From assembly GCA_903923925.1 (NCBI GenBank), contig CAIXZF010000035.1, positions 310,001 to 374,000 of the forward strand: a stretch of 64,000 nucleotides of DNA, written 5' to 3'. The translations under genes were made by a program, and so were the position numbers. Positions 2,491 to 64,000 of this stretch are shown here, piece after piece. How positions within the stretch are numbered: the stretch's first letter is position 1; the number at the start of each line of letters is the position of its first letter. Under the pieces are notes generated by a model that did not search any database, was not told the origin of the DNA, and worked only from the letters and a program-made list of their open reading frames with translations. The stretch comes from an uncultured Bacteroidales bacterium (GTDB lineage Bacteria; Bacteroidota; Bacteroidia; Bacteroidales; CAIXZF01).

Positions 2491-2496
2491 AAAAAA

Positions 2497-2865: not shown

Positions 2866-3554
2866 TTAGAGGAAGCTTTTTTATCTTTAAATTCCTTATT
2901 AAGTCCATCCAAAACAGTACTTGTTATATCAAGTGTGTCTTTGGCAAGCAAAATACCACCACCTTTAGAGTATCCCAGGATATAGTCAAATCCGAATTTC
3001 GAATTATAGCGCTTAAGGAAATTATGAATACTATCCACAAATACCTGATTTAACCTTTGTTCTTCATCCGACATCCTGGAAGTATAATCCTGGTTTAGTT
3101 GATAAAGTTTTTGTCCTTCAGCTTTCAACTGTTCATCCATTCGTTGAGCATCGTCCATGCTCAATTGCTTGGATTCGTACCGCTGCTGAAGATCTTTACC
3201 TTTTTGTTCCAATGCTTTCTGTTTCCCTGCTATTTCTGCATCATACTGAGCATATTTTCCTTCAAGATTCTTCTGTAATTCTTTAACGAGTTCATAATGA
3301 ACTTTAATTGTGTCTGAATTTACAAAGGCAATTCGCAGTCCCCCTGGTTTTGAATAGGCAGCAGCAATTGATGCCTTTTCATCTTTAGGATGTTTGGACT
3401 GTTGAAAAAAATACAATACATACAGCACAACAACAGCACAGAGAATAATAATATTCCCAATAACCAGAATCTTGGATTGGCTTGATTGCACTTCTTTGGT
3501 TGGATTCACATTCACTTGTGAATCCAACTCTTTTTCAGGGGTTTGTTCTTCCAT
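2862..3554 (-). CDS. OmpH/Skp-like protein with N-terminal membrane anchor
   Basis: A 230-residue protein. Residues ~1-28 are polar, ~29-50 form one transmembrane segment (ILVIGNIIILCAVVVLYVLY), and the rest is a Skp/OmpH-type domain: a short strand IAFVNSDTIKVHYELV, a long charged coiled coil rich in Lys, Gln and Glu, and a closing part with FGFDYILGYS. Classical Skp is a free periplasmic outer-membrane-protein chaperone with a cleaved signal. Here the hydrophobic segment is internal and preceded by a charged cytoplasmic tail, so the domain is probably tethered to the inner membrane facing the periplasm. It sits 5 bases downstream of recQ and overlaps the DUF4296 gene. Two further soluble Skp-like genes lie at 26002-27130. 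Confidence 0.8.
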   Translation of the reverse strand: MEEQTPEKELDSQVNVNPTKEVQSSQSKILVIGNIIILCAVVVLYVLYFFQQSKHPKDEKASIAAAYSKPGGLRIAFVNSDTIKVHYELVKELQKNLEGKYAQYDAEIAGKQKALEQKGKDLQQRYESKQLSMDDAQRMDEQLKAEGQKLYQLNQDYTSRMSDEEQRLNQVFVDSIHNFLKRYNSKFGFDYILGYSKGGGILLAKDTLDITSTVLDGLNKEFKDKKASSK

Positions 3555-3559
3555 ATTAT

Positions 3560-47648: not shown

Positions 47649-48827
47649 ATGAAAAAGAGCTGTAATATAGATAGTTATATTCTTGTTTTTGTTTGTCTTA
47701 TATTAGCAATAGTTCTGAACTCTTGTAAAAATGACGTTACAAATTCTGAGGTTTCCATTTCTCCAACACCTTATGATCTTCCAATTCCTAAATTTTTTCC
47801 AACACAGCTTAATATTCCTGCAGATAATCCTCTTACTGTTGAAGGAATAGAGCTTGGGAGGTATTTGTTTTATGATGAAAGGTTGGCTGGCACTTCAAAT
47901 CCCGATTCAATGATGACTTGTGGGACCTGCCATCTTCAATCGCGGTCTTTTGAATGTGGAATTGATAATCCAAGGTTTATTGGCGGCAGACCTTTTGGTA
48001 TAACCGGTATACCTACTCCCCATTACATGCTTCCACTAATTAATCTGGTTTGGAATCAACAAGGCTATTTATGGAATGGCATGGTTTATAAGGATAATCC
48101 CAATGCCGCCAGTCGAAATATTGAAGATATTGTTTATATGGGGGTCACTGCACCGCATGAGATAGCCAGTGATTCAATTAGAGTAAAGACCTACCTACAA
48201 ACAATTCCTGGTTACCCTGAATTATTTAAAAAAGCTTTTGGCTCTGATAAAATAACTTTTAAAAATGTCAGTAAGGCGATTGCACAATTTATTAGGACTC
48301 TTGTCACAGCAGACTCAAAATTTGATAAATACCTTAGAGGTGAACAAACGCTTACTACACAAGAACTTAATGGATATGTGATTTTTACCACAGAACAAGG
48401 TGGGGATTGTTTTCATTGCCATGGCGGATCAGGAAATCCTTTGTTCACAACAAATCTATTTTACAACAATGGCACTGATAGTATTTTTGATGATGTTCGA
48501 GATAGATATAGTGTTACCGGAAATAACATGGATAAAGGAGTTTACAAGGCCACAAGCCTTCGGAATATTGTCTTTACTGGCCCTTACATGCGTGATGGAA
48601 GGTTTAAAACGCTGGATGAGGTAATTGAGTTTTATTCTTCAGGTGTAATCAATTCGCCTTATATCAGTTCTTTGATGCATCATGTTTCTACTGGTGGTGC
48701 TCAACTTTCACCTCAAAGTAAAGCAGATTTAAAGGCGTTTATTCTAACTCTTACTGATACAACTTTTACCAATAATCCTGTTTTTTCAAAACCAACCACT
48801 TTTCCTGATGGCTGGCAAGGAAAATAA
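47649..48827 (+). CDS. Di-haem cytochrome c peroxidase family lipoprotein
   Basis: 392 residues with a lipoprotein signal (LILAIVLNSC). Two c-type haem sites: CGTCH (~residue 92, high-potential or peroxidatic side by order) and CFHCH (~254). GRYLFYDERLAGTSN, the haem-loop region and TSLRNIVFTGPYMRDGRF match the CCP/MauG family. It reduces H2O2 with electrons from periplasmic carriers, or may act as a MauG-like oxidase; the second function is not excluded. No partner gene is adjacent. A weak promoter candidate TACCTTTA lies at about 47625. Confidence 0.9.
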   Translation: MKKSCNIDSYILVFVCLILAIVLNSCKNDVTNSEVSISPTPYDLPIPKFFPTQLNIPADNPLTVEGIELGRYLFYDERLAGTSNPDSMMTCGTCHLQSRSFECGIDNPRFIGGRPFGITGIPTPHYMLPLINLVWNQQGYLWNGMVYKDNPNAASRNIEDIVYMGVTAPHEIASDSIRVKTYLQTIPGYPELFKKAFGSDKITFKNVSKAIAQFIRTLVTADSKFDKYLRGEQTLTTQELNGYVIFTTEQGGDCFHCHGGSGNPLFTTNLFYNNGTDSIFDDVRDRYSVTGNNMDKGVYKATSLRNIVFTGPYMRDGRFKTLDEVIEFYSSGVINSPYISSLMHHVSTGGAQLSPQSKADLKAFILTLTDTTFTNNPVFSKPTTFPDGWQGK

Positions 48828-48893
48828 TTTGATGAAATTACAGGTTCTTTCAATACTTTTTCTTAAAATGCCTTTTAGATTCCTAATGTCTTG

Positions 48894-48901
48894 TAAATTT
48901 G
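48894..48901 (+). promoter_or_regulatory. -7 promoter element for the YD-like repeat gene (TAAATTTG)
   Basis: TAAATTTG, 16 bases before the ATG at 48918. No clear TTG at the -33 distance. Confidence 0.45.
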
Positions 48902-48917
48902 CACCAAATAGTCAGAA

Positions 48918-49823
48918 ATGGGAAATTCAATAAAGTCTGTTTCAATTTTCAGAATAGAGGATCCAGAATTGGAATTAACAGAGGATCAGATTGAAAAGGA
49001 AGGATATATACACTCTCTTTCAACCTACGATTTACAGGGAAATATTATTAAAGAAGTAGATTTTAATATTGTTTCTACAATCGAACACCAAACCGAATTC
49101 GAGTATAATGATAAAAATTACTTGGTGAAAGTAAATCAATATATGGAAGATGAGGTACTTACTGAATGGAGAGAACTAGTTCGCAATGAAGAAGGTCGGG
49201 TAGATAAGGAACTTCTGCATTATCTGGATGGTTCAATTGATGTAATTGAATATTCATATAATGAAGCAAATCAGCTTATTTCAAGGATTCAGACCAACTC
49301 TGATGAAGAGATTGAAAAACAGGAGAACAATGTTTACGAAGATGGGAAACTCATTAAGGAGGAAATAATTGATCAGGATGGTAATGTAACAGTTCTGAAT
49401 ACGTATTCCTATGCAGAAAAGGGAATTTTGGAAGAAAGTATTCATGAGCTTTTCAATGATGGAAAATCCACTCGCCTGATTCATGCTTTTGATGAAGCGG
49501 GTCGCCGTCAAAAATCATTGAGATACAATGATAAAAACCAATTAGTTGAGATTAGCAGGTATGTTATTGATGATATGGATAGGGTGGTTCAGATTGAAGA
49601 TGAAGACCAACATAAAAAAAGTCTGACTACTATTGAATATGATGACGCTGGCAATATTGTAAGTCAGCTTGAAAGAGATAAAAATGATGAGATAATTTCT
49701 TCAGTTGAACGAAGGTACTCTCAGGATAACAGGGTTCTGGAATCTAAAGTATACATGTCCGGACAAGGACACAGGCAGGATCAAGAGTATACTTTGATTT
49801 ATAAATATGAATATTTTGAATAA
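48918..49823 (+). CDS. Cytosolic YD/RHS-like repeat protein of unknown function
   Basis: 301 residues, no signal peptide or membrane segment, rich in Asp and Glu. It consists of about 10-12 degenerate repeats of ~20-23 residues with a Y-(N/D)-x2-(G/N)-x-(I/L) core: YDLQGNIIKE, YNDKNYLVKV, NEEGRVDKEL, YNEANQLISRI, DEAGRRQKSL, YNDKNQLVEI, YDDAGNIVSQL. These resemble the YD repeats of RHS shells, but RHS proteins are huge and secreted, and no toxin domain, core motif or secretion gene is nearby. I do not assign a function. It has its own promoter element and ends 57 bases before the cohesin-like gene. Confidence 0.7.
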   Translation: MGNSIKSVSIFRIEDPELELTEDQIEKEGYIHSLSTYDLQGNIIKEVDFNIVSTIEHQTEFEYNDKNYLVKVNQYMEDEVLTEWRELVRNEEGRVDKELLHYLDGSIDVIEYSYNEANQLISRIQTNSDEEIEKQENNVYEDGKLIKEEIIDQDGNVTVLNTYSYAEKGILEESIHELFNDGKSTRLIHAFDEAGRRQKSLRYNDKNQLVEISRYVIDDMDRVVQIEDEDQHKKSLTTIEYDDAGNIVSQLERDKNDEIISSVERRYSQDNRVLESKVYMSGQGHRQDQEYTLIYKYEYFE

Positions 49824-49880: not shown

Positions 49881-52823
49881 ATGAAAAACAAATATTCTAC
49901 TGTTATTATGCGAAAGTTCCCTCATTGGATAATTTCTGTTTTACTAGCCATATTTTTTACAATAACGGCGAACTCATCTTTTTCTCAGGCCAGGATGAAG
50001 CTCGATACTATTTATGCTTGCCCCGGTGATACTATTAAGGTACCTATTAAAGCAAGCAATTTCCCTAGTGTCGGCTCAATTTCTGCTGTCTACGGTTACA
50101 CCAGCTCGGTTTTGACATATTTGGGATATACATATAAGTCTATGCTGAACACGGGTTTTCTGGTTTTAAATGGGGCAATTCCTGGAACAATTTCAATGGC
50201 CTGGTATTCAACAGCTCCTCTTAACCTTGTTTATGACTCTATTATTACTGTAAGATTTATTTTCAACGGAGGCACTACCAACCTTATTTGGGATATGAAT
50301 ACATGTGAAATTACCAATGTTAGCGGTGTTCCTATTGCATCAAACTTTATTAATGGTTTAGTTTCAGACCTTCCCAATCTGGCTCATATAAATTCTAATC
50401 CTGTAAATGTTATTGATTGTTTAGGTGATACCGTAAGTTTTCATATTACTTCAAGTAATACTACATTTATTCAATGGCAGGTTAGTACAGACAATGGCGT
50501 TACCTGGAATGATATAGCCAACGCTCTTCCGTATTCTGGTGTTTTTACAAATAACCTTACTATTTCTGGAATAACTCTTGCGATGAATAATAACAAATAT
50601 CGTTGCAGAGTAAGAGGGCATTGTCCACCTTCTCAGGTCCCCGATATAATTTCAAATAGCGCAGTGTTAACAGTTAATGGCCCCCCGGCAATATTTGCCG
50701 GAAATGATTTTGGGATTTGTTCAGGACTTAACGCTAATTTGAGTGGTACAGCAACTTCATACTTGTCAATAAACTGGACATCAGCAGGGAGTAGCGGAAC
50801 CTTCACCGGAAATGGCACTTTAACTCCTACATATACTCCAAGCGGGGCGAATATTACAGCAGGATCTGTTGTGTTGTACTTAAATGCAGTTCCACTTGTA
50901 GGATGTGGTGCAAGTAAAGATTCATTAAATCTGACTATTTATCCAATTCCTGTTGCAAATGCAGGGAATGATACAACTATTTGTATAGGTGGACTTGCTT
51001 ATTTACATGCATCGGGAGGAACAGTGTTTTCATGGAATACTATTCCTGTGCAAACATCGCAGGTAGCTGTGGTAAACCCTGTTGATACATCAACATATAC
51101 CTTGACAGTAGGGCAAAGTGGTTGCACTGATACTGATGTTGTTACCGTTAACGTGGTTCCTGTCCCAGTAATATATGCTGGACTTAACGATACAATTTGT
51201 GAAGGCGAAAATGGAACTTTTATTGGAACCGCAATTAATTATTCAACAATAAATTGGTTAACTTCAGGAAATGGAACTTTTTCTGATCCAAACTCTTTGA
51301 GTACGGATTATACTCCAAATGCATCAGATATTTCGGCTGGTCTTGTTGAGATTTACTTTACAGTTGTTCCCAATACTCCTTGCTCAACTATTGTTTCAGA
51401 TACATTGTTGCTTGTAATCAGGCCGTTACCTCACGTTTCTGCAGGTCTTGATAAACAAATTTGCATTGGTGATACTGCTACATTAATTGCAACAGGAGCA
51501 ACAACTTATACGTGGAATACCACACCAGTTCAGACAAATGACACAATAACTGTTATCCCTCAGCTTACAACAACTTATGTATTAACCGGAACTGCTGCTA
51601 TTTGTTCTGCTGTGGATAGCGTTAAAGTTGTTGTTCATATGTTGCCAAACGTTAATGCAGGTAATGATACAACAATTTGTTTCGGAACGAGTGCCACACT
51701 AATGGCCGTTGGAGGAATCTCATACATCTGGAATACAACATCTCCAACCCCTTTTATTACAGTTTCTCCAACTATTACAACCTCATATACTGTAACTGCA
51801 ACGGGACCTTTCAATTGTAAGGCGTCAGATGCTGTAACTGTATTAGTTAATTCTAATTTAACAGCATCAATTTTACCGTTAAATCCTGTTATATGTGCTG
51901 GTGATTCTGTTGAATTAGAAGCAAGTGCGAATCTTCCTGTCAGTTTCACCTGGTCACCTTCTTTGGGCTTATCTGCCACTAATGTACCTGTTGTTATGGC
52001 AAGTCCTTACATGACAACAGATTATGAAGTTCTTGTAAAAGATAACAATCTAAATTGTACAGCAAAAGCAACAGTTACACTTACAGTTAATCAAAACCCA
52101 ATTGTTCAGGTGCATCCATCAGCAATTACAATCTGTGAAGATGATACCATTACCCTTTCAGCATACGGAGCGTTGAATTATTATTGGTCGCCTCCAACTG
52201 CTTTGTCTTCAAATACATTGCCAACTGTAATGGCTAGTCCTATGGATTCAATATCCTATTTAATTATTGGCACTGATGCAAATGGCTGTGTTGATAGTTT
52301 TCAGGTAAATATTAATGTCAACAAGAGACCTCATGTCACTCTGCCGGAAAATACAATAGTTTGTCAGGGAACAAATTATCTTCTTGATGCAGGTGCATAT
52401 CTTGATTCATGTAACTATTTATGGCAGGATGGTTCAACTCAACAATTTTTCTATGCATCTGAGCCCGGTACGTACGCTGTAGTAGTCAGTAAACTTGGTT
52501 GTACAGCTACAGATTCAACAATTATTTATCCATGCTCAGAATTGTTTGTGCCCAATGCATTTTCGCCTAATAACGATGGGATTAATGATGTCTTTTATGT
52601 TATAAACTCAGGCGATGTTATCGCTTTCCATATGGTAATTTATAACAGATGGGGAGAGGTAGTATTCCAAACTTACAATATTAATCAAGGTTGGGATGGA
52701 ACTTATAATGGTGTTAGAAGCCCAGTTGGAGTTTATCATTGGGTTATTGAATATTTAGGTCAGGGGAATGTGCTTCTTGAACAGGAAGGTAAAAAATATG
52801 GCCAGATTACTTTATTCAGGTAA
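49881..52823 (+). CDS. Cohesin-like and Ig-repeat surface protein with T9SS type B sorting domain
   Basis: 980 residues. Signal peptide (ISVLLAIFFTITANSSFSQ); cohesin-like beta domain ~40-165 (YACPGDTIKVPIKASNFPSV ... LNTGFLVLNG ... TTNLIWDMNTCEI); an Ig-like domain with WQVSTDNGVTWNDI that recurs in the 2102-residue giant; then about eight Ig/SprB-like repeats, each with the pattern NAGNDTTIC...Y..W...CTDTDxVTVNV; and a gliding-associated type B C-terminal domain (LFVPNAFSPNNDGINDVFYV ... YNRWGEVVFQ ... WDGTYNGVRSPVGVYHWVI). Such proteins go to the surface by T9SS and often act in gliding or adhesion. Its end overlaps the convergent MATE gene by 12 bases. Confidence 0.85.
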   Translation: MKNKYSTVIMRKFPHWIISVLLAIFFTITANSSFSQARMKLDTIYACPGDTIKVPIKASNFPSVGSISAVYGYTSSVLTYLGYTYKSMLNTGFLVLNGAIPGTISMAWYSTAPLNLVYDSIITVRFIFNGGTTNLIWDMNTCEITNVSGVPIASNFINGLVSDLPNLAHINSNPVNVIDCLGDTVSFHITSSNTTFIQWQVSTDNGVTWNDIANALPYSGVFTNNLTISGITLAMNNNKYRCRVRGHCPPSQVPDIISNSAVLTVNGPPAIFAGNDFGICSGLNANLSGTATSYLSINWTSAGSSGTFTGNGTLTPTYTPSGANITAGSVVLYLNAVPLVGCGASKDSLNLTIYPIPVANAGNDTTICIGGLAYLHASGGTVFSWNTIPVQTSQVAVVNPVDTSTYTLTVGQSGCTDTDVVTVNVVPVPVIYAGLNDTICEGENGTFIGTAINYSTINWLTSGNGTFSDPNSLSTDYTPNASDISAGLVEIYFTVVPNTPCSTIVSDTLLLVIRPLPHVSAGLDKQICIGDTATLIATGATTYTWNTTPVQTNDTITVIPQLTTTYVLTGTAAICSAVDSVKVVVHMLPNVNAGNDTTICFGTSATLMAVGGISYIWNTTSPTPFITVSPTITTSYTVTATGPFNCKASDAVTVLVNSNLTASILPLNPVICAGDSVELEASANLPVSFTWSPSLGLSATNVPVVMASPYMTTDYEVLVKDNNLNCTAKATVTLTVNQNPIVQVHPSAITICEDDTITLSAYGALNYYWSPPTALSSNTLPTVMASPMDSISYLIIGTDANGCVDSFQVNINVNKRPHVTLPENTIVCQGTNYLLDAGAYLDSCNYLWQDGSTQQFFYASEPGTYAVVVSKLGCTATDSTIIYPCSELFVPNAFSPNNDGINDVFYVINSGDVIAFHMVIYNRWGEVVFQTYNINQGWDGTYNGVRSPVGVYHWVIEYLGQGNVLLEQEGKKYGQITLFR

Positions 52824-54173
52824 AACCTCTTCAATTACCGGGTATTTAACAACGACTTTAGATTTCCATTTACCTGTCTTGTAATAAATATAAGAAAAGA
52901 ACATTCCGATTCCCCAGGCAATCGGGATGCCCCACCAAACTCCTGTTATACCAATATGTCTGGACAGAAACCAGCTTATTGGGATCCGAATCAACCACAG
53001 CGCGAACAAAGTAATAAACATGGGTATTAGCGTATCTCCAGCGCCCCGCATTACTGCTCCTACGGTAAACATCCCTGAGAATAATATGTAAAATGAACTA
53101 ACAATTACAAGATATTCATGACCTATAGCAACAATGTTCGGGTCGTTGGTGAACAACCTCATTAAGCTACTGCCAAAGAAATATATCGTGATTGTAACCA
53201 GTACAGAAAATATTGACGTCATCCATAGTGTGGCAGCAAATCCCTTTCGAACTCTTTCTGGTTTATTTGCTCCTAGATTCTGACCTACAAAAGTCGACAA
53301 AGCGGCTGCAAAGTTCATTGCAGGAATAGACGCAAATGAATCAATTCTTCCAGCAACACTAAAGGCAGCAATTGCTTCTGTACCAAATTTATTTACAATA
53401 CCAAATAAAGCAAGCATTCCCATTGCTACAAATGTTTGTTGTAATCCCGATGGCAAACCTATTTTAACAGACTTTTTAAAGATCTCGCTATCGAATTCCA
53501 TGTTTTTTATTGAGAATTTTACGATATCATGTGTTCTGTTAAGGTAAATTATTGCTGTGAAGAAAGCTCCTCCCTGTGAAATAAGAGTAGATATTGCTAC
53601 ACCAGCAATACCCCATTTAAAAACGAGCACAAAAAGTAAATCGAGCCCTATATTCATCAATGTTGAGATCACTAAAAAGACAAGTGGTGTTTTTGAATCC
53701 CCTAAACCACGTAAAATTGCACTGGTTCCATTAAATCCAAAAAAGAAAATACTACCACTCAGGAAGATATTTAAATATAAAACAGCTTGAGGCCTTATAT
53801 CATCTGGCAGGCCTGTTAATTTGAAAATAAAATTACTAAATGCAATACCCAGAATAGAAATAATTATAGAACCAAAAAACAAAAAAATATAAAGTGTGTC
53901 AATTGATTTCTTAACACGTTTCAGATCCCCAGCACCAAAATATTGAGATATTATTATTGTACTTCCCATTGTAATACCAATAATGAAGGATACAAGCATA
54001 AATATAATTGGAAAGGATGCTCCTACAGCTGCTAAAGCCTCTTTGCCAATAAATTGTCCAACAACTATTGCGTTAATTACATTATATAATTGTTGAAAAA
54101 CATTCCCAATAAGCATTGGACCTGCAAACTTGAGGATAACCCTGCCTTCATTACCAAGAGTTAAGTCACGCAT
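52812..54173 (-). CDS. MATE family efflux transporter
   Basis: 453 residues, about 12 membrane helices, with the family's two pseudo-repeats: PMLIGNVFQQLYNVINAIVV with GQFIGKEALAAVGASFPI in the first half, and GLPSGLQQTFVAMGMLAL with GRIDSFASIPAMNFAAALST then FVGQNLGANKPERVRKG in the second. MATE pumps export cationic drugs or metabolites with Na+ or H+. The substrate cannot be assigned. It ends inside the last codons of the convergent cohesin-like gene. Directly upstream lies the terminator of the giant surface-protein gene. Confidence 0.93.
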   Translation of the reverse strand: MRDLTLGNEGRVILKFAGPMLIGNVFQQLYNVINAIVVGQFIGKEALAAVGASFPIIFMLVSFIIGITMGSTIIISQYFGAGDLKRVKKSIDTLYIFLFFGSIIISILGIAFSNFIFKLTGLPDDIRPQAVLYLNIFLSGSIFFFGFNGTSAILRGLGDSKTPLVFLVISTLMNIGLDLLFVLVFKWGIAGVAISTLISQGGAFFTAIIYLNRTHDIVKFSIKNMEFDSEIFKKSVKIGLPSGLQQTFVAMGMLALFGIVNKFGTEAIAAFSVAGRIDSFASIPAMNFAAALSTFVGQNLGANKPERVRKGFAATLWMTSIFSVLVTITIYFFGSSLMRLFTNDPNIVAIGHEYLVIVSSFYILFSGMFTVGAVMRGAGDTLIPMFITLFALWLIRIPISWFLSRHIGITGVWWGIPIAWGIGMFFSYIYYKTGKWKSKVVVKYPVIEEVLPE

Positions 54174-54203
54174 AATATTTTAAAAAGTAGTTTAAATGTA
54201 ATA

Positions 54204-54250
54204 TTATAACAAAAAAGCCCGCTGTTTGTCAGCGGGCTTTTTTGTTATAA
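54204..54250 (-). terminator. Bidirectional-type terminator after the 2102-residue gene
   Basis: A perfect 21-base inverted repeat: TTATAACAAAAAAGCCCGCTG, loop TTTGT, then its complement. GC-rich core with A- and T-runs on both sides, 10 bases after the stop of the giant gene on the minus strand. Confidence 0.93.
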
Positions 54251-54260
54251 TAATTAAATC

Positions 54261-57200
54261 TTATTTAGAAATGCTAAACAGGTGTGTTTTAATCTGTCCG
54301 TTAAGTTCAATCTTCAGGATATAAACACCCTGACTAATCGAACCAGCATCAAATTTAAGATTATGGTTTCCAGCTTCTACATCTGAATTCAAAAGTTCAG
54401 AAATTTCTTCGCCAATAATACTGAAGAGTTTTATATTAACTTTTCCAGATTCAGGTAAAGAATATGACACTGTTGTTGTTGAAGAAACAGGATTAGGATA
54501 GTTAGTAATACTTAATTCAGTATTTTCTGAGGAGATTTTAGGAATAATTAGGTTGGCACCTTTAATTGTAACAGCATTTTCATCAGAAAGAACACTGCTT
54601 CCAACCATTGTAATGGATAGATCATTGTGTGATCCAACATTCATATAAATGTTCAGAAGGCATTCTCCGGCAGAAACAGTTAGCGGATCAAGATCATACC
54701 AGCCAATTCTAAGTTCGTTATCGATCACATTGAAAAGTACTTCTTCTCTATTTGATGAAACGATTTTTGTAATACTAATGCCTGATGGAATTTCAAGTTT
54801 CATTGAAATAGCACCAACTGTAAGATTTTGTTCAGAGATTATTGGCAAAACTACATTGCCATTTGCATTAACAGCTACACTACCTTCACGATTCAGGTTT
54901 ATAGTAGGTTCAGGTTTCATAAATGGTGGAATATAATCACCATTCACATCACTTGCACACAGCGAATGTATGTTAACTACTGGTGATACAACTCCATCAA
55001 TTACAAAGCTTGGTGTTTCAAATAACCAATCACTAATTGGTAAGAAGTTAGAAATCATACCTAAGAAACGCCTTACTGTATTTAGAGCATCATGTGAATT
55101 TACTTTTCCATTTCCTGTAACGTCACCAGCGGTGAGGTACATGCCTGTAAGTTGTTGATTCCCTGTAAAATGTTTTAACATGAGAAGTCCGTCAGCAGCA
55201 TTTCCTCCACCCCAGGCTTTAGTTGTATTCGCAGTAACATGATACGAACCTGTAGAAAGGTCAGAAAAACCATAGTTGCCGTTGGCATCTGTTGTTGTTG
55301 TTGCAACCAAACTGTTAAGGTTGTCAAATAAATTAACAGCAACGTTATTCATTGGTGTTGAACCATCATTGAGGTATGACACAACTCCAGTAATATTATT
55401 CGATGCAATTATTACATTGACTGTTACTGTACTCATACTTGAACAACCATAATAATCTGTAACTACTAATGTATAGGTTGTAGAGAATATTGGTGTTGCA
55501 GTAGGATTCGCAATTGTAGCATCATCTAATCCTGTTGCAGGAGTCCACAAATAAGTGTAAGGAGCTGTTCCACCTGAAACTGAAGAGGTAAGTACTGTTG
55601 ATTCACCTGCACCTATAGCTGCGTTATTCCCTGCACTTACTAAAAGTGATGGATTAATACCTATTGAAGCAGAACCAGACATCATACTTGTACATCCGGC
55701 CAGATCATTAACAGCTACAATAGTATAATTGCCAGCTGCAAAGAAATATCCAAAATTCATAGCTTCACCTGTTCCTGCAACCCCGTTTCCAGTATTTACA
55801 TTATCAAGTTGTACAAAATAAGAAACACCTGTTTCAGAACCACTAAGCATGATTTCAGAACCATTTCCATTTTCACAATAAACTCCACCTCCCATTACTT
55901 CGAAAATTGCAGGTAATGGTGTTACACTGATGCTACCATTTACATAGTTTACATTAAGAACATTGTCATTCAAGTCAACTAACTGACAATTTCCTGGTGT
56001 AAATAAATCCCAGCTAACAACAGAATTGCCAGAAACTCCTGCAAAAATATAGTTAACAAGTAATCCAGTACCTATGTTTGCAGGTGCAATGTTGAAATAA
56101 CCCAGTTTTACTTGGTTATCAAGTACATTGATGCTGAAAAAGCCATTTTGAATTTCAGTATTTAGATCAGAATAACCGATATAACTAACCAAGTTCTGAT
56201 CAAATGTTAATGATAATGAAAGTGAAGCTACATTGGAGAAGTTCTCTACAGATACAGGGATGACAAATTCGCCAGGACAGCTGTTGGCTATGCCAGCAGT
56301 TATTGTAATGGTTGCTGATTCAACTGATAATGATGCGGCATCTGAAGTTGCAAAAGAAGGACAATCTCCAAAAGCAAGACAATGGAACATTTGTCCACTC
56401 ATTGATTGTGAAACATTAAATATGCCTAACACATCTGAGTTGACTCCATTGTAGGTGCCATCGTTTGAAAGGTTGTTCCAGTTTACTCCTCCATCGGTTG
56501 AAACTTGCCATTGTAGGAAATAAGCGTTAGCAGATACTACAGTGAACGAAGCATCATTACCTGAACTAACTGTTACATTTGATGGTGAAGTTAGTGATGG
56601 AAGCCCGATTACTATAATATCCTGAGATGCGGAAGAACCACAAGCCGCTAGATCACCATATGTATAAGAAATTGTGAAATTACCTCCACCGGTTAGTGTT
56701 GGGTAAAATAAATTACCAACTACACCAGGTCCACTGTATACTCCACCTTCTGGTTGACCATTGAGAACAACAGGATTGCCATCAGCACATACAGGTGCCA
56801 ATTGATCCAGAGTTACTAAAGTGTTGGTGGTTACTTCTGCAGTTTGAGTAATTTCACTTGTACAACCACTAATATTTGTGAAAGTATAAGTAATTATGTA
56901 AATGTTAGGCTCTACTGTACCAGGATAGAAATAGTTGTCATATACTCCGATTCCGGTAAAATAGCCACCTTCAGGATATGCAGTAAGTAATATTGGTTCA
57001 GAACCGGTACATACAGTAGGAATAGAAGGGAACTGAAGTTCTGTCAATGGGTTCACTGAAATAGTTTCTGTGATGGATCCGGTACACCCTGATTCATTTG
57101 TATAAGAATATGTAATTTCATGAACACCAATTCCGGCAGATGCTGGGTCAAAAATATTACCAATCATTCCATTTCCTGAGAAAACTCCACCTTCTGGATA

Positions 57201-60200
57201 TCCGTTAACTACGAATGATAGTGATGAAATGCAGGTGTTTTCGGGAAGAGAAGTATTTACAGGTATAGTTGAATTGACGATAACTTCAATACTACTTGTG
57301 CTTGTACAACCATTCTCATTTGTATAAGTATAGGTAATTGTGTAATTCCCGATTCCACTTACAGCAGGATAAAACATATTATCAAAAACGCCTAAACCTG
57401 AGAATGTTCCACCTGATGGATAAGCAACTAATGCTGCTGGTGCAGAACTTTCACATAGAGGACTAACTGGGGAGATTTCAACAACAGGGGCAGGTACTAC
57501 AGTTACAATTCCTGTTATGTTTGAAACACAACCGTATTCATTTGTAAAAGTATAATTGATTGAGTTAGGTCCTTCAAATGTATAATTAGGCCAGAATTCA
57601 TAAATTTCAGAAGAATAGTTGTAATATACACCATCCCCATCAAAAGTTCCTCCGACAGGAGAACCATTTAATTCTATTTGGCTGCCAGTTGCACAAGCAA
57701 ATTCAGGGAGACCAATTATTGATACCTGACTTGTTGGATTAACAGTAATGCTTGATGTTGTAGAAGAAGTACACCCATAGATATCACTATAAACATAAGA
57801 AATTTCATGAGTGCCAATGCCAGCAAGAGCTGGATTGAAATTATAATCACTTTCTGTTATTCCAGCGCCACTGAAGATTCCGCCACTTGGATAAGTGTAC
57901 AGGTTAAGATTAATAATTTCTGAGTTTTCACATACCGATGAAGGAGGGTTGAAAGATAATCCCATCAATTGATTAACAAAAATATACTGAGTTAATTCTG
58001 CAGCACATCCTTCAGGAGAAGTGTAGGTGTAGGTGATTGCAATATATGATCCAGCTTCGGTTTGTGAAGGATCAAAACTGTTTTCAAATACTCCAGAACC
58101 AGAAAATACTCCCCCAGCTGGATTACCATTAAGGGTTAATGGACTTGAATTTTGGCAAATCATTTGAGGAAGATCAAAGCCTATTTCTGGAATTGCATTA
58201 ACTGTAATTTGGGATTCAGTTTGGCTGAAACATCCAAATTCGTTGCTAACTAAATAAGTAATTGTGTAATTACCTGCTCCAACCCAACTTGGGTAGAATA
58301 AGAAATCTGAACCTTCATACTGATTATATACACCAGCGCCATTGAAAACACCACCAGCAGGTTCTCCTGCGAGTAGAATTGGTTCACTGTTAGCACAAAT
58401 TTGCTGAGGCATATTGATACTTAAATTTGCTGGAGCTGGGTTTACTGTTATGCTTCCCAAAATACTTGAAGTACAATTATACTGGTCGGAGAGTGTGTAA
58501 GTAATATCAAATGTACCTGCACCAGAGTTAGACGGGAAGAAGAAATCTTCAATAACACCTGTTCCTGAGAAAGTTCCGCCGCCAGGATAACCAATAAGCT
58601 GAATAGCATCTGAATTGGCACAAACCGATTCTGGAAGATAAATTTCAAGATAGGGTAGATAATTGACGAAAATGAAATGCTGTGATGTATTTGAACAGCC
58701 ATTTTCATCAGTATAACTGTAATCAATTGGATATAAAGAACCTGGTAATACTAATGACGGATCAAATGTATTTCCAACAACTCCGCTTCCAGAAAAAATA
58801 CCACCTTCAGGAGTTCCATTCAGAACAACTGGGTTGGCATTTGCACAGATATTATCAGGTCCACTTATTGAAACAACTGGAAGTCCATAAACAGTAATAT
58901 CTTGAGTTGCTGAGGAAGTACATCCGTATTCATCTGTATAGAAATATGTTACAGGGTAGGTTGCTGGTCCTGCATAAGTAGGATTGAACATCCATGAACT
59001 TTCACCCAGATAAACATAATCGCCTTCAAACCAGCCACCAGCAGGTGATGCAGCTAGTTCAACCGGAGAAGAACCGTGACAAACACCGTTTAAAGGGTTA
59101 AAAGTGATAACTGAAGGGGTTGTAACTGTTAATTCACTTGTTACTGAATTTGTACATCCGGATTCGTTTGTGTATGTGTAGGTAATAGCATGTACACCTG
59201 AACCAGCCTGGCCAGGGTAAAAGAAATTTTCATTAACACCTGCACCACTGTAAACTCCACCTTGTGGATATCCATATAAGGCAACCGGATCTGAGTTTAA
59301 ACAAACAGGAGAATCATAATACAAATTTAATTCTGGAAGTTGAATAACCTGTATTGTTTGTGTAAAAGAACCAGAACAAAATCCTGGAGAACTTGCAGTA
59401 TAAGTAATTTCAGAGAATCCTGTTCCAGCGATTTCAGGATAGAATGTATTTTCAATAACACCAGATCCAGAATAATTACCGCCTTCAGGTAAGCCGCCAG
59501 TTAGCAAAAAAGGACTGGAAGAAATACAAACAGAAGGGAAACTTTCTAATGAAACTTGTGTAAGAGGTAGAATATTTACGATAGCTGAGCCATTCATTGT
59601 TGCAGAACCACAATTATTTGAGGCAGATACAGTATATGTTCCCAAAGCCTGGAATATGCCAAAATTAATTGAACCTCCTGAACCAGATTTGCTAACACCA
59701 GTGGTAGCACCATCAAGAAATAATTCGTAATTAATGTTAGCTTGTGACCCACTTAAACCAATAGCAATTCCTGTTTGGCCAGCACAATAACCACCACCAC
59801 CGATAACATCGAATAATTGAGGTGTAGGCAGAAAACTGGTAGTTGTTGTTGCATTCACTGAAGGGTTTGTACATGCACCTGCTCCGATTGAAACAAGGGT
59901 ATAAGTAGTTGCACTTGCAGGATAAGTCGTAAAAACATAAGGATTTGTAGAAGTGTTTACTGTTACATTTGGGTTTACACCATCGTTGTAAACAATTGAG
60001 TAAGGAGCAACTCCATTTACATGAATTGAAACTTCTGCTGGTTGACCACTACAGATGAATGGTGTACTACTAATTGTACCAGTTGGTAATCCTGCAGTAA
60101 TCCCACCATTAACAAATTGAGCAGGCATAGGATCTCCGGCAAAATTGCTATATTGACAGGCTCCCTGAGATACCAGATCCCATATAAGGGTACTGGTATT

Positions 60201-60569
60201 AGTTACATTAAACCTGAAAGTAAACAATGCCTGACCATTAGGTATATTTACAGAACTAAGTCCAAAATAAGCTGCTGCTATTGTATTTCCCGGCGCATTA
60301 ACCATGAGGAATCCTCCACTTGAAGTTAAAATCGGATTTGCAGTATAGCTTACATAAGAAGCATTTACATTGTTAAAAATGAGCTTTAAGGATATTGAAG
60401 CCACATCGGTAAAATTCTGAACGTATATAGGAACATCAACATTCTGTGTCCCCGGACAAACAGACACAGCACCCGCTGTTGTTATTATCGGGGTTTGGGC
60501 TGTCGACACCACCGTCCATAAAAACAAGGCTAATAATATAGCCGTGGTCTTGGTAAGGATTGTTTTCAT
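54261..60569 (-). CDS. Giant T9SS surface protein with 13 Cys-pair modules, cohesin-like and dockerin-like domains
   Basis: 2102 residues. Signal peptide (1-24). Cohesin-like 1 ~28-165 (VDVPIYVQNFTDVASISLKL). Ig-like and VIGGGGYC modules ~170-330. Thirteen ~76-residue modules ~331-1324 (see 56596-59575). Ig-like ~1325-1410 with WQVSTDGGVNWNNL; cohesin-like 2 ~1415-1550 (VIPVSVENFSNVASLSLSLT); VMGGGVYC and SprB-like modules to ~1725; carboxypeptidase-regulatory-like ~1730-1785 (VVSYLNDGSTPMNNVAVNLF); dockerin-like ~1785-1900 (AGDVTGNGKVNSHDALNTVR); cohesin-like 3 ~1910-2010; type A sorting domain ~2020-2102 (ITNYPNPVSSTTTVSY). No enzyme domain is seen. A hairpin upstream (60626) and the terminator at 54204 make it a one-gene unit. 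Confidence 0.85.
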   Translation of the reverse strand: MKTILTKTTAILLALFLWTVVSTAQTPIITTAGAVSVCPGTQNVDVPIYVQNFTDVASISLKLIFNNVNASYVSYTANPILTSSGGFLMVNAPGNTIAAAYFGLSSVNIPNGQALFTFRFNVTNTSTLIWDLVSQGACQYSNFAGDPMPAQFVNGGITAGLPTGTISSTPFICSGQPAEVSIHVNGVAPYSIVYNDGVNPNVTVNTSTNPYVFTTYPASATTYTLVSIGAGACTNPSVNATTTTSFLPTPQLFDVIGGGGYCAGQTGIAIGLSGSQANINYELFLDGATTGVSKSGSGGSINFGIFQALGTYTVSASNNCGSATMNGSAIVNILPLTQVSLESFPSVCISSSPFLLTGGLPEGGNYSGSGVIENTFYPEIAGTGFSEITYTASSPGFCSGSFTQTIQVIQLPELNLYYDSPVCLNSDPVALYGYPQGGVYSGAGVNENFFYPGQAGSGVHAITYTYTNESGCTNSVTSELTVTTPSVITFNPLNGVCHGSSPVELAASPAGGWFEGDYVYLGESSWMFNPTYAGPATYPVTYFYTDEYGCTSSATQDITVYGLPVVSISGPDNICANANPVVLNGTPEGGIFSGSGVVGNTFDPSLVLPGSLYPIDYSYTDENGCSNTSQHFIFVNYLPYLEIYLPESVCANSDAIQLIGYPGGGTFSGTGVIEDFFFPSNSGAGTFDITYTLSDQYNCTSSILGSITVNPAPANLSINMPQQICANSEPILLAGEPAGGVFNGAGVYNQYEGSDFLFYPSWVGAGNYTITYLVSNEFGCFSQTESQITVNAIPEIGFDLPQMICQNSSPLTLNGNPAGGVFSGSGVFENSFDPSQTEAGSYIAITYTYTSPEGCAAELTQYIFVNQLMGLSFNPPSSVCENSEIINLNLYTYPSGGIFSGAGITESDYNFNPALAGIGTHEISYVYSDIYGCTSSTTSSITVNPTSQVSIIGLPEFACATGSQIELNGSPVGGTFDGDGVYYNYSSEIYEFWPNYTFEGPNSINYTFTNEYGCVSNITGIVTVVPAPVVEISPVSPLCESSAPAALVAYPSGGTFSGLGVFDNMFYPAVSGIGNYTITYTYTNENGCTSTSSIEVIVNSTIPVNTSLPENTCISSLSFVVNGYPEGGVFSGNGMIGNIFDPASAGIGVHEITYSYTNESGCTGSITETISVNPLTELQFPSIPTVCTGSEPILLTAYPEGGYFTGIGVYDNYFYPGTVEPNIYIITYTFTNISGCTSEITQTAEVTTNTLVTLDQLAPVCADGNPVVLNGQPEGGVYSGPGVVGNLFYPTLTGGGNFTISYTYGDLAACGSSASQDIIVIGLPSLTSPSNVTVSSGNDASFTVVSANAYFLQWQVSTDGGVNWNNLSNDGTYNGVNSDVLGIFNVSQSMSGQMFHCLAFGDCPSFATSDAASLSVESATITITAGIANSCPGEFVIPVSVENFSNVASLSLSLTFDQNLVSYIGYSDLNTEIQNGFFSINVLDNQVKLGYFNIAPANIGTGLLVNYIFAGVSGNSVVSWDLFTPGNCQLVDLNDNVLNVNYVNGSISVTPLPAIFEVMGGGVYCENGNGSEIMLSGSETGVSYFVQLDNVNTGNGVAGTGEAMNFGYFFAAGNYTIVAVNDLAGCTSMMSGSASIGINPSLLVSAGNNAAIGAGESTVLTSSVSGGTAPYTYLWTPATGLDDATIANPTATPIFSTTYTLVVTDYYGCSSMSTVTVNVIIASNNITGVVSYLNDGSTPMNNVAVNLFDNLNSLVATTTTDANGNYGFSDLSTGSYHVTANTTKAWGGGNAADGLLMLKHFTGNQQLTGMYLTAGDVTGNGKVNSHDALNTVRRFLGMISNFLPISDWLFETPSFVIDGVVSPVVNIHSLCASDVNGDYIPPFMKPEPTINLNREGSVAVNANGNVVLPIISEQNLTVGAISMKLEIPSGISITKIVSSNREEVLFNVIDNELRIGWYDLDPLTVSAGECLLNIYMNVGSHNDLSITMVGSSVLSDENAVTIKGANLIIPKISSENTELSITNYPNPVSSTTTVSYSLPESGKVNIKLFSIIGEEISELLNSDVEAGNHNLKFDAGSISQGVYILKIELNGQIKTHLFSISK
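56596..59575 (-). repeat. Thirteen tandem modules of ~229 bases in the giant gene
   Basis: Each module reads roughly: VC-x4-P-x2-L-x-G-x-P-x-GG-x-FSG-x-GV-x2-N-x-F-P-x3-AG-x-G-x3-ITYTYTN-x2-GCT-x-S-x5-ITV. All 13 keep both cysteines (first in VC/IC, second in GC or NC), at a constant distance of about 53 residues in most modules, so one disulfide per module is likely. Modules 3, 6 and 9 have short insertions. DNA identity between neighbours is moderate, so the array is old. Confidence 0.85.
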
Positions 60570-60625
60570 TTTGATGACTTTTGGTTTAACTTATTATGAT
60601 TGGATTTATTTCACTAATATATAAA

Positions 60626-60681
60626 AGAATGACACCGCCCTTACATTTTGAACATTTCTTCAAAATAAGCGGTGTCATTCT
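60626..60681 (-). terminator. Long stem-loop after the >1086-residue gene
   Basis: AGAATGACACCGC (60626-60638) and GCGGTGTCATTCT (60669-60681) form a perfect 13-base stem; the 30-base loop holds a second inverted repeat ATTTTGAA / TTCAAAAT. On the minus strand it is followed by TTTTATATA. It stands in the 171-base gap between the two giant genes and is the probable terminator of the upstream one. Confidence 0.7.
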
Positions 60682-60740
60682 AGGGGTTTTAGGTTGTATT
60701 ACATTGTTATTCGATTATCTGTGGTAAGAAAACAATTGTA

Positions 60741-63700
60741 TTAATGGGTAACAATCATTCTTTTTGATTGAACAACTGTTTTTGTTTCACCAAGAACTTC
60801 GATTTTGTAAATGTAAACACCCTGAGGTAGTTTTGAACCATCAATCACTAAATTATAGCGACCTGCAGTTTGTTGTGCATTAACTAATTCGGCTACTTCC
60901 TCTCCAATGTGATTGTATAATTTCAGAGTAACATTCCCATTTTCTGGAAGAGTATAGCTAATAGTTGTTGATGCACTGAAAGGATTAGGATAATTATTGC
61001 TCAGGTTAAACTCTGTTTTAGAAACTTTAACCTTAGGCATTGTAAGAACTGCATTATCAATAACTACAGATTCTTCATTCCCCAATTCACTTCCACCTGT
61101 TATTTCAAAGCTTAGGTTTTCGGTAGCTGATAAACTAGAACTTCTGATCTTTAAAGTAAAGAGATCATCATTGGTATTTATTGATACTGGAGATAAACTA
61201 TACCATTCAATATAGAGAACGCCATCAGAAATATTATATACCAGATTTCCTTTTGATCCTGTATTTGCAATTACATCAAGGATTTCAATTGAATTAGCAG
61301 GGAAATTAATAGCTAGCGACGCGGCACCAAGCTGCATAGTTTTTCCTGCTTTAATTGGTAATGTAAATTCATTGAAAGAGTTGACAAATTGTGTTCCTGA
61401 ATTATCCAAAGCAACTGAAGGTGCTGCTTTAACTGGAGGAATATAAGATCCGTTTACGTCACCATAACAAAGCCCTTTGAAGCTATTAGGAACTGCAGCA
61501 TTATTAATCAGGATATTCTTGATTTCAAATGCCCAATCAGCATTAATTGGGAAAGTTGTTATCATGTGAACTGATCTCTGCATTACCAGAAGAGCATCAT
61601 TGGCATTAACAACACCATTTCCATCAACATCTCCTACCCTTAACCTTAATCCGGCAAGAATTTCAAGATTCTGGAAGTGACGTGCAATTTTCAATGCATC
61701 AAGAGAGTTAACACCACCCCATAATTTAGTGCTGCTACCTTCTGTTGTATAGTTTCCGTTTGGAACCTGAGGTAAGGTATAATTACCGTTGAAATCAGTT
61801 AATCCGGTTGCAACTGTGATATTTGCACTCTTTAATAGAACAGTAGTGTTGCTTAAAGGTGAGGATAATGTGTTATCATAAGTTACCTGACCAAAGATAT
61901 CATAACCAAATACTGTATTGGTTACATTAACTGTTACCTGGTCTGTTGCTACGCAACCATATGAATCAGTTACAGCGAGAGTGTAAACTGTAGTTGATAG
62001 TGGTGATGCTAACGGACTAAGAATGTTTGCATTATTTAATCCGATTGCAGGTGTCCAGCTATAAGTGTATGGTGCGTGTCCACCAGTTACATAAGAATTC
62101 AACGTTGTTGATAATCCAAGTGTAATCGTTTTATCTGGACCTGCATTAACATTAGCTGCTTGATTTACAACAACCAAGGCGTTGTCAGAATCAGTACAAC
62201 CATTAGCATCAGTTACAATAACTGTATAGAAGGCAGTTGAAGCTGGATTAGCAATTGGATTAGCAATTGTTGCATTGCTTAAGTTTGTTGCTGGGATCCA
62301 CTGATAATTATATGGTCCTGTTCCACCAACTACATTTGCATTTAATGTAGTAGATGTTCCCTGGCAAATAATACTATATCCACCAGTATATACATTAGGA
62401 GCAGGATTAACAATAATCTCTGCACTGCCAAACATTGGTACACTACAGGCAGTTACTGAATTAACCCCTACAACTGTATATGTGCCAGCTACTATTTGTG
62501 TTCCAAAGGATATTACAGATCCTGTTCCTGATACTACAACTCCTGTTGCAATGCCATTACGGTAAAGATGATACTGCATTCCAATTTCTGAACTTGCAAG
62601 AGCAACTACAAACCCACTTCCACCAGCACAGAATGCACCACCTCCAATTACGGTGAATTGTAATGGTTTGACAACATCAACATTGAGGCTTGTCGAACTG
62701 ATACATCCAAATTCATTTGTAAATGTATAGGTAATTGTATAGGTTCCAGTTGCTACTGTTGCTGGGTCAAATGTGTTTCCAACAACACCTGTTCCGGAGA
62801 AAGTCCCTCCAGCTGGTAAACCAACTAAAGTAACTGCTGGTGCATTGTAACATACTGGTGAAACAGGTACAATAATAGGATTACTTAGAGGATTAACAAC
62901 AATTGTTGTTGTTGCTGATGTTGTACAACCATAAGTGTTTGTATAAGTATAGGTGATCAGATGAGTTCCAACACCTGCTTCAGCTGGATTAAAAGTATTA
63001 CCAACAACTCCAGTTCCACTATAGGTTCCACCTGCTGGCTGACCTTGAGTTAATGCAAATACATCTGCATTCTGGCAAATTCCACCAAGATTTCCAATAG
63101 AAACAAAAGTTGCTTCAAGAGTAGTTATTTCTTGTGTAGCAAAATTTGCGCAACCGAATTCATCTGTGAAAGTATAGGTAATAGTATGTACTCCAACTTC
63201 AGTAAGTTCAGGATTGAAGACGTTTCCTATAACACCTGAACCTGAATAAACACCCCCTGCTGGAGTTCCATAAAGTGAAATTGGCGAAGCGTTGTTACAA
63301 ACCGCACCTAATTCTCCAAGAGTAACTACTGGTAATGCGTTTACAGTTACGGGTTGTGAAGTACTGGATGTACAACCATTCTCGTTGGTATAAGTATAGC
63401 TTATTGTGTATGTTCCAGGTCCGGCAACAGCAGGATAGAACATATTTCCTTCCACTCCAACACCTGAATAGCTGCCACCCACTGGAGAACCATATAAAGT
63501 AAGTGCATTTGCACTAACACAGATATTTCCAGGTTCACTTAGTGTAACTACTGGTAAAGCATTAACTGTTATTTCCTGTGATGCACTGTTGGTACATCCG
63601 TTTCCATCTGTATAAGTGTATGTAATGGTATAAGTTCCTGGACCTGCAACTGCTGGATTAAACATGTTGCCCTCAACAGCAGTTCCTGTGAAGATTCCTC

Positions 63701-64000
63701 CCTGAGGAGCTGCATTTAATTCAACTGAATTTGAGTTAAAACAAACAGCTGCAATAGCACCAAAATTGATTTCTGGTAATGCATTCACAATGATTTCCTG
63801 CATAGTTGAATTTATGCAACCATTACCATCTGTGTATGTATAGGTAATTGCAAATACACCTGTTCCGGCAATTGTTGGATAAAAAACATTGCCCTCAACA
63901 CTTGTACCTGAATAAACACCACCTGCTGGAGTTCCATTAAGTGCAACTGGAGAAGCATTGTTACAAACAGCTCCTAACTGATCAAGGGACACTACAGGTA
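60741..64000 (-). CDS. Giant T9SS surface protein, partial (continues past the window)
   Basis: The frame is open at base 64000 (before the GTG at 63992 it reads PV), so the 5' end is missing; at least 1086 residues are visible. Order: six complete or nearly complete Cys-pair modules; a VIGGGAFC module; two SprB-like repeats (YTGGYSIICQGTSTTLNANV, NAGPDKTITLGLSTTLNSYV); a carboxypeptidase-regulatory-like domain (IFGQVTYDNTLSSPLSNTTV); a dockerin-like segment (WGGVNSLDALKIARHF, VGDVDGNGVVNANDALLVM, YGDVNGSYIPP); a cohesin-like domain (ASLAINFPANSIEILDVI); and a type A sorting domain (NNYPNPFSASTTISY, then SKRMIVTH). The C-terminal half is colinear with that of the 2102-residue neighbour, so the two are paralogues. 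Confidence 0.85.
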   Translation of the reverse strand, partial: PVVSLDQLGAVCNNASPVALNGTPAGGVYSGTSVEGNVFYPTIAGTGVFAITYTYTDGNGCINSTMQEIIVNALPEINFGAIAAVCFNSNSVELNAAPQGGIFTGTAVEGNMFNPAVAGPGTYTITYTYTDGNGCTNSASQEITVNALPVVTLSEPGNICVSANALTLYGSPVGGSYSGVGVEGNMFYPAVAGPGTYTISYTYTNENGCTSSTSQPVTVNALPVVTLGELGAVCNNASPISLYGTPAGGVYSGSGVIGNVFNPELTEVGVHTITYTFTDEFGCANFATQEITTLEATFVSIGNLGGICQNADVFALTQGQPAGGTYSGTGVVGNTFNPAEAGVGTHLITYTYTNTYGCTTSATTTIVVNPLSNPIIVPVSPVCYNAPAVTLVGLPAGGTFSGTGVVGNTFDPATVATGTYTITYTFTNEFGCISSTSLNVDVVKPLQFTVIGGGAFCAGGSGFVVALASSEIGMQYHLYRNGIATGVVVSGTGSVISFGTQIVAGTYTVVGVNSVTACSVPMFGSAEIIVNPAPNVYTGGYSIICQGTSTTLNANVVGGTGPYNYQWIPATNLSNATIANPIANPASTAFYTVIVTDANGCTDSDNALVVVNQAANVNAGPDKTITLGLSTTLNSYVTGGHAPYTYSWTPAIGLNNANILSPLASPLSTTVYTLAVTDSYGCVATDQVTVNVTNTVFGYDIFGQVTYDNTLSSPLSNTTVLLKSANITVATGLTDFNGNYTLPQVPNGNYTTEGSSTKLWGGVNSLDALKIARHFQNLEILAGLRLRVGDVDGNGVVNANDALLVMQRSVHMITTFPINADWAFEIKNILINNAAVPNSFKGLCYGDVNGSYIPPVKAAPSVALDNSGTQFVNSFNEFTLPIKAGKTMQLGAASLAINFPANSIEILDVIANTGSKGNLVYNISDGVLYIEWYSLSPVSINTNDDLFTLKIRSSSLSATENLSFEITGGSELGNEESVVIDNAVLTMPKVKVSKTEFNLSNNYPNPFSASTTISYTLPENGNVTLKLYNHIGEEVAELVNAQQTAGRYNLVIDGSKLPQGVYIYKIEVLGETKTVVQSKRMIVTH
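62680..64000 (-). repeat. Tandem 222-base modules in the partial giant gene
   Basis: The linker codons for NALP recur at 63331, 63553 and 63775, spaced exactly 222 bases (74 codons). Six modules fit in the visible part and the array runs off the window. Modules 2 to 4 share ITVNALPVVTL-type linkers and are more alike than those of the neighbouring gene, so duplication here is more recent. Confidence 0.85.

Follow-up and report, generated by a model that had tools for sequence, protein, structure and literature searches.

The window analyzed here is a stretch of 64,000 nucleotides from the genome of an uncultured Bacteroidota bacterium (C35:310001-374000). Its last part encodes three secreted proteins of 980, 2102 and 5,621 amino acids, the last one being cut by the window end, which combine cohesin-like and dockerin-like modules with sorting domains of the type IX secretion system (T9SS). 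Profile searches, comparison with solved structures and high-confidence structure prediction confirmed that all cohesin-like and dockerin-like segments of these proteins are genuine. The three proteins are probably parts of a genome-wide, T9SS-exported and cellulosome-like surface assembly, for which the binding of the modules, its specificity and the export of cargo lacking a T9SS C-terminal domain (CTD) are putative.

Here, N-type cohesins are distinguished from a C-terminal cohesin (CohC), and the dockerin is part of a larger module termed XDoc, an X beta-sandwich into which it is predicted to be inserted (Table 1). For the 980-residue protein, an earlier note on this DNA had claimed an N-terminal cohesin-like domain and a type B sorting signal, and both are borne out by the Pfam family PF00963, a local hidden Markov model (HMM) and the CHU_C/TIGR04131 matches. 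The PF00963 match covers residues 39-130 (E 1.1e-4) and, with 22.8 bits, lies slightly below the cut-off of 24.1 bits. The three cohesins plus dockerin read in the 2102-residue protein proved exact in number. A seed-only HMM, for which the N-type cohesins of the 5,621-residue protein were the only input (ten sequences), found exactly three cohesins in it, at residues 26-158 (E 1.8e-26), 1419-1548 (E 7e-38) and 1891-2006 (E 8e-4), and a single one in the 980-residue protein. Dockerin_1 matched with E 5.9e-4 on the whole protein and with 26.1 bits on the XDoc module alone. The Pfam check suggested at that time gave a divided result, with Dockerin_1 present on the 2102-residue and the partial protein, whereas Cohesin stayed below the cut-off on the 980-residue protein and had no match on the 2102-residue protein.

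The partial protein indeed has the same dockerin-cohesin tail, as recognized by Dockerin_1, the local HMM for CohC and the type A tail. The statement that no scaffoldin is present does not hold, since the cut reading frame reaches 13.6 kb past the window end. The full protein carries ten N-type cohesins at residues 55-4308 among many immunoglobulin (Ig)-like modules, followed by XDoc, CohC and a type A tail. It is a non-catalytic multi-cohesin scaffold with 10+1 cohesins, as expected for a cellulosome.

Table 1. Features of the cohesin and dockerin proteins in the window (window positions; aa, amino acids).
Feature	Position	Strand	Evidence or remark
Secreted protein of 980 aa with a single cohesin at the N-terminus, Ig/PKD-like repeats and a T9SS sorting domain of type B (CHU_C)	49881..52823	+	
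Cohesin of 980-aa protein, aa 36-162	49986..50366	+	local HMM E 2.5e-27
T9SS type B sorting domain of 980-aa protein, aa 889-961	52545..52763	+	PF13585 (CHU_C) E 5e-18, TIGR04131 E 9e-15
2102-aa scaffold: two N-type cohesins, Ig-like repeats, XDoc, CohC, T9SS type A tail	54261..60569	-	
First cohesin, 2102-aa protein, aa 31-156	60102..60479	-	local HMM E 2.1e-35
Second cohesin, 2102-aa protein, aa 1424-1546	55932..56300	-	local HMM E 2.2e-37
XDoc of 2102-aa protein	54927..55394	-	alignment profile E 4e-59
Dockerin part of 2102-aa XDoc, borders approximate	55020..55217	-	homology to predicted model of 5,621-aa XDoc; Pfam matches
CohC of 2102-aa protein, aa 1895-2005	54555..54887	-	refined HMM E 2e-20
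T9SS type A sorting domain, 2102-aa protein, aa 2024-2094	54288..54500	-	PF18962 E 2.4e-8; TIGR04183 33.8 bits (cut-off 23)
C-terminal 1,085 aa of 5,621-aa scaffoldin-like protein	60741..64000	-	runs past window to C35:387606
XDoc of 5,621-aa protein	61437..61898	-	alignment profile E 6e-60; Dockerin_1 24.2 bits, over cut-off
CohC of 5,621-aa protein	61050..61403	-	local HMM E 1.4e-23
T9SS type A sorting domain, 5,621-aa protein	60777..60992	-	TIGR04183 E 1.8e-9, 39.7 bits

Beyond the gene of the 5,621-residue protein follow those of a 365-residue cohesin protein and of a 2,246-residue protein with cohesin, XDoc and CohC. The gene order 980 - MATE-like transporter - 2102 - 5,621 - 365 - 2,246 is kept in G001, a relative from another genus of the same family. 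There, the orthologue of the 5,621-residue protein is a frame of 6,522 residues, and that of the 980-residue protein a frame of 1004 residues with one cohesin at the same position (44.6% identity in the best segment). Along the five cohesin proteins of the cluster, the cohesins number 1, 3, 11, 1 and 2 here and 1, 3, 10, 1 and 2 in G001. The MATE-like transporter gene (52812-54173, minus strand) lies within the conserved cluster in both genomes, and its stop overlaps that of the gene for the 980-residue protein on the opposite strand. Furthermore, a cytochrome c peroxidase-like and a YD-repeat-like gene adjoin the cluster (47649-49823, plus strand), and both have counterparts near the cluster of G001.

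The identity of the cohesins is visible on sequence as well as on fold level. The N-type cohesin profile, for which 57 cohesins from the window and from relatives were used, matched solved cohesins in the PDB, with 2xdh as the best (E 5e-11) and 6kgc and 1g1k among the others. The second cohesin of the 2102-residue protein was modeled by AlphaFold2 with a predicted local distance difference test score (pLDDT) of 96.9. A Foldseek search with this model again placed the 2xdh cohesin at the top (E 3.5e-12, template modeling score 0.81), and the best 50 rows are cohesins or cohesin complexes as far as their titles tell. For the XDoc-CohC part of the 5,621-residue protein, the model reached a pLDDT of 95.8 and a predicted template modeling score (pTM) of 0.91. 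Within it, CohC (model residues 165-294) superimposes on chain A of 2vn5, a cohesin of C. cellulolyticum, with a VIA-align Z of 13.2 and a root mean square deviation of 2.5 over 127 residues. The N-type cohesin and CohC models both show the beta-sandwich fold of cohesins, and the structure prediction proposed in the earlier note speaks in favor of the assignment in both cases. A chance match of low-complexity sequence was rejected on the basis of local-HMM module matches with E 1e-35 or lower together with the concordant folds.

The XDoc module, aligned from 21 copies, has a length of ~154 residues. When the XDoc-CohC profile was compared with the PDB, an SdrD-like sandwich was matched at 11-61, dockerins at 65-124 and cohesins at 161-280. 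The dockerin part matches solved type I dockerins, including chain B of 1ohz, over both repeats, and the model contains three helices, in line with the two helical repeats of a type I dockerin. Glycine, aspartate, asparagine and tryptophan positions are invariant throughout the 21 copies. The second repeat retains the calcium loop D-x-[DN]-x-x-x-x-[VI]-N-[SA]-x-D (AADVDGSGYVNSVDAL...), whereas in the first repeat, WGGVNSxDALLILKHF, this loop is lost, so that the two loops of a type I dockerin are not both present.

Over model residues 3..149, the XDoc sandwich matches domains of the carboxypeptidase-D and CnaB types. Since just ~80 residues of this span are aligned, the dockerin (~62-125 of the model) is predicted to sit between the strands of a carboxypeptidase-regulatory-like beta-sandwich, the last strands of which come after the dockerin. 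In intact XDoc modules, the match to CarboxypepD_reg stops at position 53-56 of the 82 profile positions. After removal of the dockerin in silico, the match extends to position 66-79 and its score rises by 3 to 8 bits, as seen in each of the four modules tested. Known X-dockerin dyads have a contiguous X module ahead of the dockerin, and XDoc lacks this arrangement. Like the dyads of A. cellulolyticus (4u3s/4wi0) and C. thermocellum (5m0y), XDoc combines a dockerin with an Ig-like X module packed against it, and the XDoc profile weakly matches the X module of 4wi0/4u3s (E 1e-3). Unlike in these dyads, the dockerin would lie between the sandwich strands, with the last strands following it. No description of a nested dockerin was found in the literature searched, which is weak evidence since most subscription papers lie outside this search. 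A second dockerin type is present in the same genome, namely in a small M10-like metalloprotease (L043:1622-5368; C46:1622-5368), which contains PKD-like repeats and ends in a classical dockerin whose calcium loops are both intact. Because of this different, two-loop type, the protein was excluded from the XDoc family.

The alignment profile detects 62 XDoc copies in the genome and 97 in G001. The Cohesin profile (PF00963) matches the genome 34 times, with E 3.6e-12 for the strongest match, Dockerin_1 (PF00404) matches at 46 places, most of them above the cut-off, and at least 74 cohesin-like modules were counted in the proteins first examined. The XDoc proteins form two classes. In relatives, the length of the sequence after XDoc is bimodal, with either almost none (28 proteins) or ~190-260 residues that usually comprise CohC and a sorting tail (77 proteins), and six others. 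The same division is seen in the own genome, where 21 of the proteins examined with intact ends stop at XDoc and 37 are tailed, the latter with at least 188 residues after XDoc and most of them with a detectable CohC and T9SS tail.

In the CTD-less class, XDoc lies 0-4 residues from the C-terminus and no T9SS sorting domain was recognized. A simple rule assigned a Sec-type signal peptide to 15 of 16 such proteins, and a simple pattern found no lipobox in them. Pfam domain scans, which covered part of the XDoc proteins, identified in this class Peptidase_C25 with its propeptide, Peptidase_M14, Metallophos with a purple-acid-phosphatase N-domain and Hepar_II_III_C (HepB-like), as well as GEVED, PKD/BACON and G8 domains. 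CTD-less XDoc proteins of relatives contain C25, M28 and a pectate-lyase-like fold. Several dockerin-bearing enzymes, as known from cellulosomes, are found in the own genome as well as in relatives. Members of the NCBI choice-of-anchor L and Q families also terminate in XDoc, which suggests that XDoc may occupy the place of an anchor. The tailed class contains C10, C25 and M6-like peptidases together with long Ig/PKD arrays, and one XDoc scaffold (L060:3719-9394) has 15 PKD_6 repeats. Furthermore, cohesin proteins without XDoc exist, with lengths of 980, 365, 564 and 1,444 residues.

A separate origin of the two classes as distinct lineages was rejected, since they intermingle in the tree with at least three forced switches, or eight by parsimony; they are more clustered than shuffled labels. 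One consensus of the dockerin helices is common to both classes. Due to this consensus and the intermingling, the sequences give no sign of two separate XDoc specificities.

Some arrangements of XDoc genes recur. Proteins of ~200 residues with a signal peptide, XDoc and little else are encoded in G000 (C32:88564-89157 and C32:89264-89758; L072) as well as in G001 (C3:118904, C20:2440 and C20:3103), thus in both genera, and it may be asked whether they are free plugs, competitors or adaptors. In L150 and L159, a three-cohesin gene with XDoc and a short tail is followed by two XDoc-terminated genes. This row is kept in two lake metagenome assemblies and probably encodes partners together. In six assemblies (L108, L118, L120, L124, L126 and L140), a tailed XDoc gene of ~570 residues adjoins an oppositely oriented XDoc-terminated gene of ~660-710 residues.

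With respect to secretion, the genome encodes SprA (E 1.6e-169) and at least 150 type A tails, which suggests a working-looking T9SS. The three window proteins have the features of T9SS cargo, i.e., a type A or B sorting domain in a genome with a T9SS. A search for the secretin family in the genome had no result, hence no type II route was recognized. At a threshold of E 1e-10, XDoc is found in 80 of 393 genomes of the order; in an even draw of the phylum, it is present in only 23 of 395 genomes. A Pfam cohesin is present in 62 of the 80 XDoc genomes compared to 45 of the 313 genomes of the order without XDoc (odds ratio 20.5, P 6e-27, kinship ignored).

The earlier note had proposed a self-assembling outer layer. 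Of this, the genuine modules and the type A and type B proteins stand, and networking between the proteins is likely because several T9SS type A/B proteins carry both cohesin and dockerin. The purely structural part fits less well to the XDoc-terminated C25, M14, heparinase II/III-like and purple-acid-phosphatase-like enzymes encoded elsewhere in the genome. Together with the scaffoldin-like protein, these enzymes point to cellulosome-like docking of enzymes rather than to a purely structural layer. None of the present results relates to gliding, for which the note had considered such a network. In such an assembly, the 5,621- and 2102-residue proteins would be scaffolds that present several N-type cohesins and are held at the outer membrane by their type A sorting domains, and the 980-residue protein would be a type B-sorted anchor with a single cohesin. 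About 20 other Sec-exported, XDoc-terminated proteins, several of them hydrolases and others with domains presumed to function in adhesion or binding, would plug into the N-type cohesins with calcium and in this way be located at the surface. Scaffolds with an XDoc of their own could dock to further scaffolds or to anchors with a single cohesin, for example the 980- and 365-residue proteins, resulting in a layered network comparable to that of clostridial adaptor scaffoldins. The enzyme set would be directed at proteins and other non-cellulosic polymers, and a nutritional role in the breakdown of biopolymers may be assumed.

Several points weigh against such an enzyme-docking assembly. In the Pfam-scanned proteins, which do not include every XDoc protein, no carbohydrate-binding module (CBM), glycoside hydrolase (GH), cellulase or hemicellulase was found, and most XDoc proteins have no recognizable catalytic domain. 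Judged by its sequence, XDoc is not a standard two-loop dockerin, as the first calcium loop is lost. No Pfam cohesin was detected in 18 of the 80 XDoc genomes, and the P value of the co-occurrence is too optimistic because the relatedness of the genomes is uncorrected. Finally, the model leaves unexplained by which route the CTD-less proteins cross the outer membrane. Here, it is conceivable, albeit at a tentative level, that XDoc serves as an export ticket, either because it binds a cohesin protein with a T9SS tail while still in the periplasm and is carried with it through SprA, or because it is itself a sorting signal. If true, scaffolds would be loaded during or before the passage of the outer membrane, unlike in Gram-positive cellulosomes.

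Structural self-assembly alone, in which scaffolds polymerize head to tail via XDoc-cohesin contacts into an outer layer or matrix and the enzymes are incidental, appears rather unlikely. The 37 tailed XDoc proteins, many with long Ig/PKD-like arrays and no enzyme, would fit to such a polymer, and since the XDocs of both classes intermingle and have alike dockerin helices, their partners could be common. However, the 21 proteins of the own genome that end at XDoc have no cohesin-anchor tail and would cap rather than lengthen a polymer, and several of them are enzymes. The isolated cohesin proteins without XDoc (980, 365, 564 and 1,444 residues) also do not fit.

It is more doubtful still that XDoc-CohC is a rigid, cis-bound stalk ahead of the sorting signal, that a C-terminal XDoc is a new T9SS sorting signal and that the N-type cohesins serve other ligands. 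The pTM of 0.91 over 294 residues does indicate a defined mutual orientation of the modules, and in tailed proteins XDoc is usually followed by CohC. Nevertheless, an orientation in cis is no proof that the dockerin face is occupied. As for sorting, the position of XDoc 0-4 residues from the end of CTD-less proteins is that of a sorting signal, the choice-of-anchor L/Q proteins end in XDoc, T9SS CTDs are C-terminal beta-sandwiches (PMC4804311), and without a secretin the genome has no recognized type II route. On the contrary, the tailed proteins also possess a regular type A tail, which would be needless if XDoc sorted them, and with the dockerin removed the XDoc sandwich matches Por_Secre_tail only at chance level (E 0.04). 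A reading of the modules as relics or as generic Ig-like decoration of adhesins without specific binding is highly improbable. Other Ig-like repeats are abundant in many of these proteins, and Peer et al. 2009, as cited in PMC8542988, reportedly describes cohesin-like modules without known partners in many organisms. However, the core positions of the dockerin show no or almost no variation among 21 copies, and cohesins and XDocs are amplified together and strongly co-occur across genomes.

The closest precedent found for an enzyme-docking assembly of this type is Ca. Stygibacter (Cloacimonadota). Here, a cellulosome-like complex for the breakdown of proteins and polysaccharides has been proposed, with dockerin-bearing C25, S8, GH18 and GH57 enzymes and a scaffoldin of 3,755 amino acids with a surface-attachment CTD (PMC8542988). 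Both systems have enzymes that end in a dockerin, among them a gingipain-like C25 peptidase, and because the principle is the same, the assembly described here is no new kind of system. In contrast, the scaffold of Ca. Stygibacter has CBM2/CBM3 and its cargo GH18/GH57, neither of which was found here, whereas the present genome has many scaffolds, a second cohesin beside the type A tail as well as a cohesin protein with type B sorting. The nested XDoc of the system described here may be a further difference.

With the clostridial cellulosome (CipA/OlpA/OlpC/SdbA, ScaA/ScaB/ScaC), the system shares a multi-cohesin scaffold, dockerin-terminated enzymes, one-cohesin anchors and two-module adaptors, and the cohesin and dockerin folds match those of clostridial complexes. 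It differs by the Gram-negative cell, by anchoring through the T9SS rather than through an S-layer or sortase, by the lack of cellulases and CBMs among the domains found, by the lost first dockerin loop and by the nested dockerin. The cohesin 2xdh, the top match of the N-type cohesin in sequence and fold, is a non-cellulosomal cohesin from Archaeoglobus fulgidus; unlike the cohesins described here, this single archaeal cohesin has no scaffold, XDoc or T9SS context. Within the Bacteroidetes, the multi-modular T9SS cellulases of Ca. Paraporphyromonas are similar as large T9SS-linked enzymes. Cohesins and dockerins were reported in 2018 to be absent from Ca. Paraporphyromonas, consistent with other Bacteroidetes genomes (PMC5831590). 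In 2023, isolated dockerin matches were described in cockroach-gut Bacteroidales, with a cohesin only in a Firmicute (PMC10266427). As far as checked, new aspects in Bacteroidota are the scale, the nesting of XDoc, its combination with CohC and a sorting tail into one unit, and the two classes of architecture.

The 62 dockerin modules and over 70 cohesins exceed the expectation for Bacteroidetes, which have been described as being without cellulosomal parts (PMC5831590). If the modules bind each other, a cellulosome-type assembly would be joined to type IX secretion and redirected to the degradation of proteins and other biopolymers. This raises the question of how dockerin-terminated enzymes cross the outer membrane without a T9SS signal. 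The nested XDoc would also represent a new dockerin topology for designer scaffolds. Taken as a whole, this bacterium appears to build large surface assemblies in which proteases and other enzymes dock into giant cohesin proteins, and which are not aimed at cellulose.

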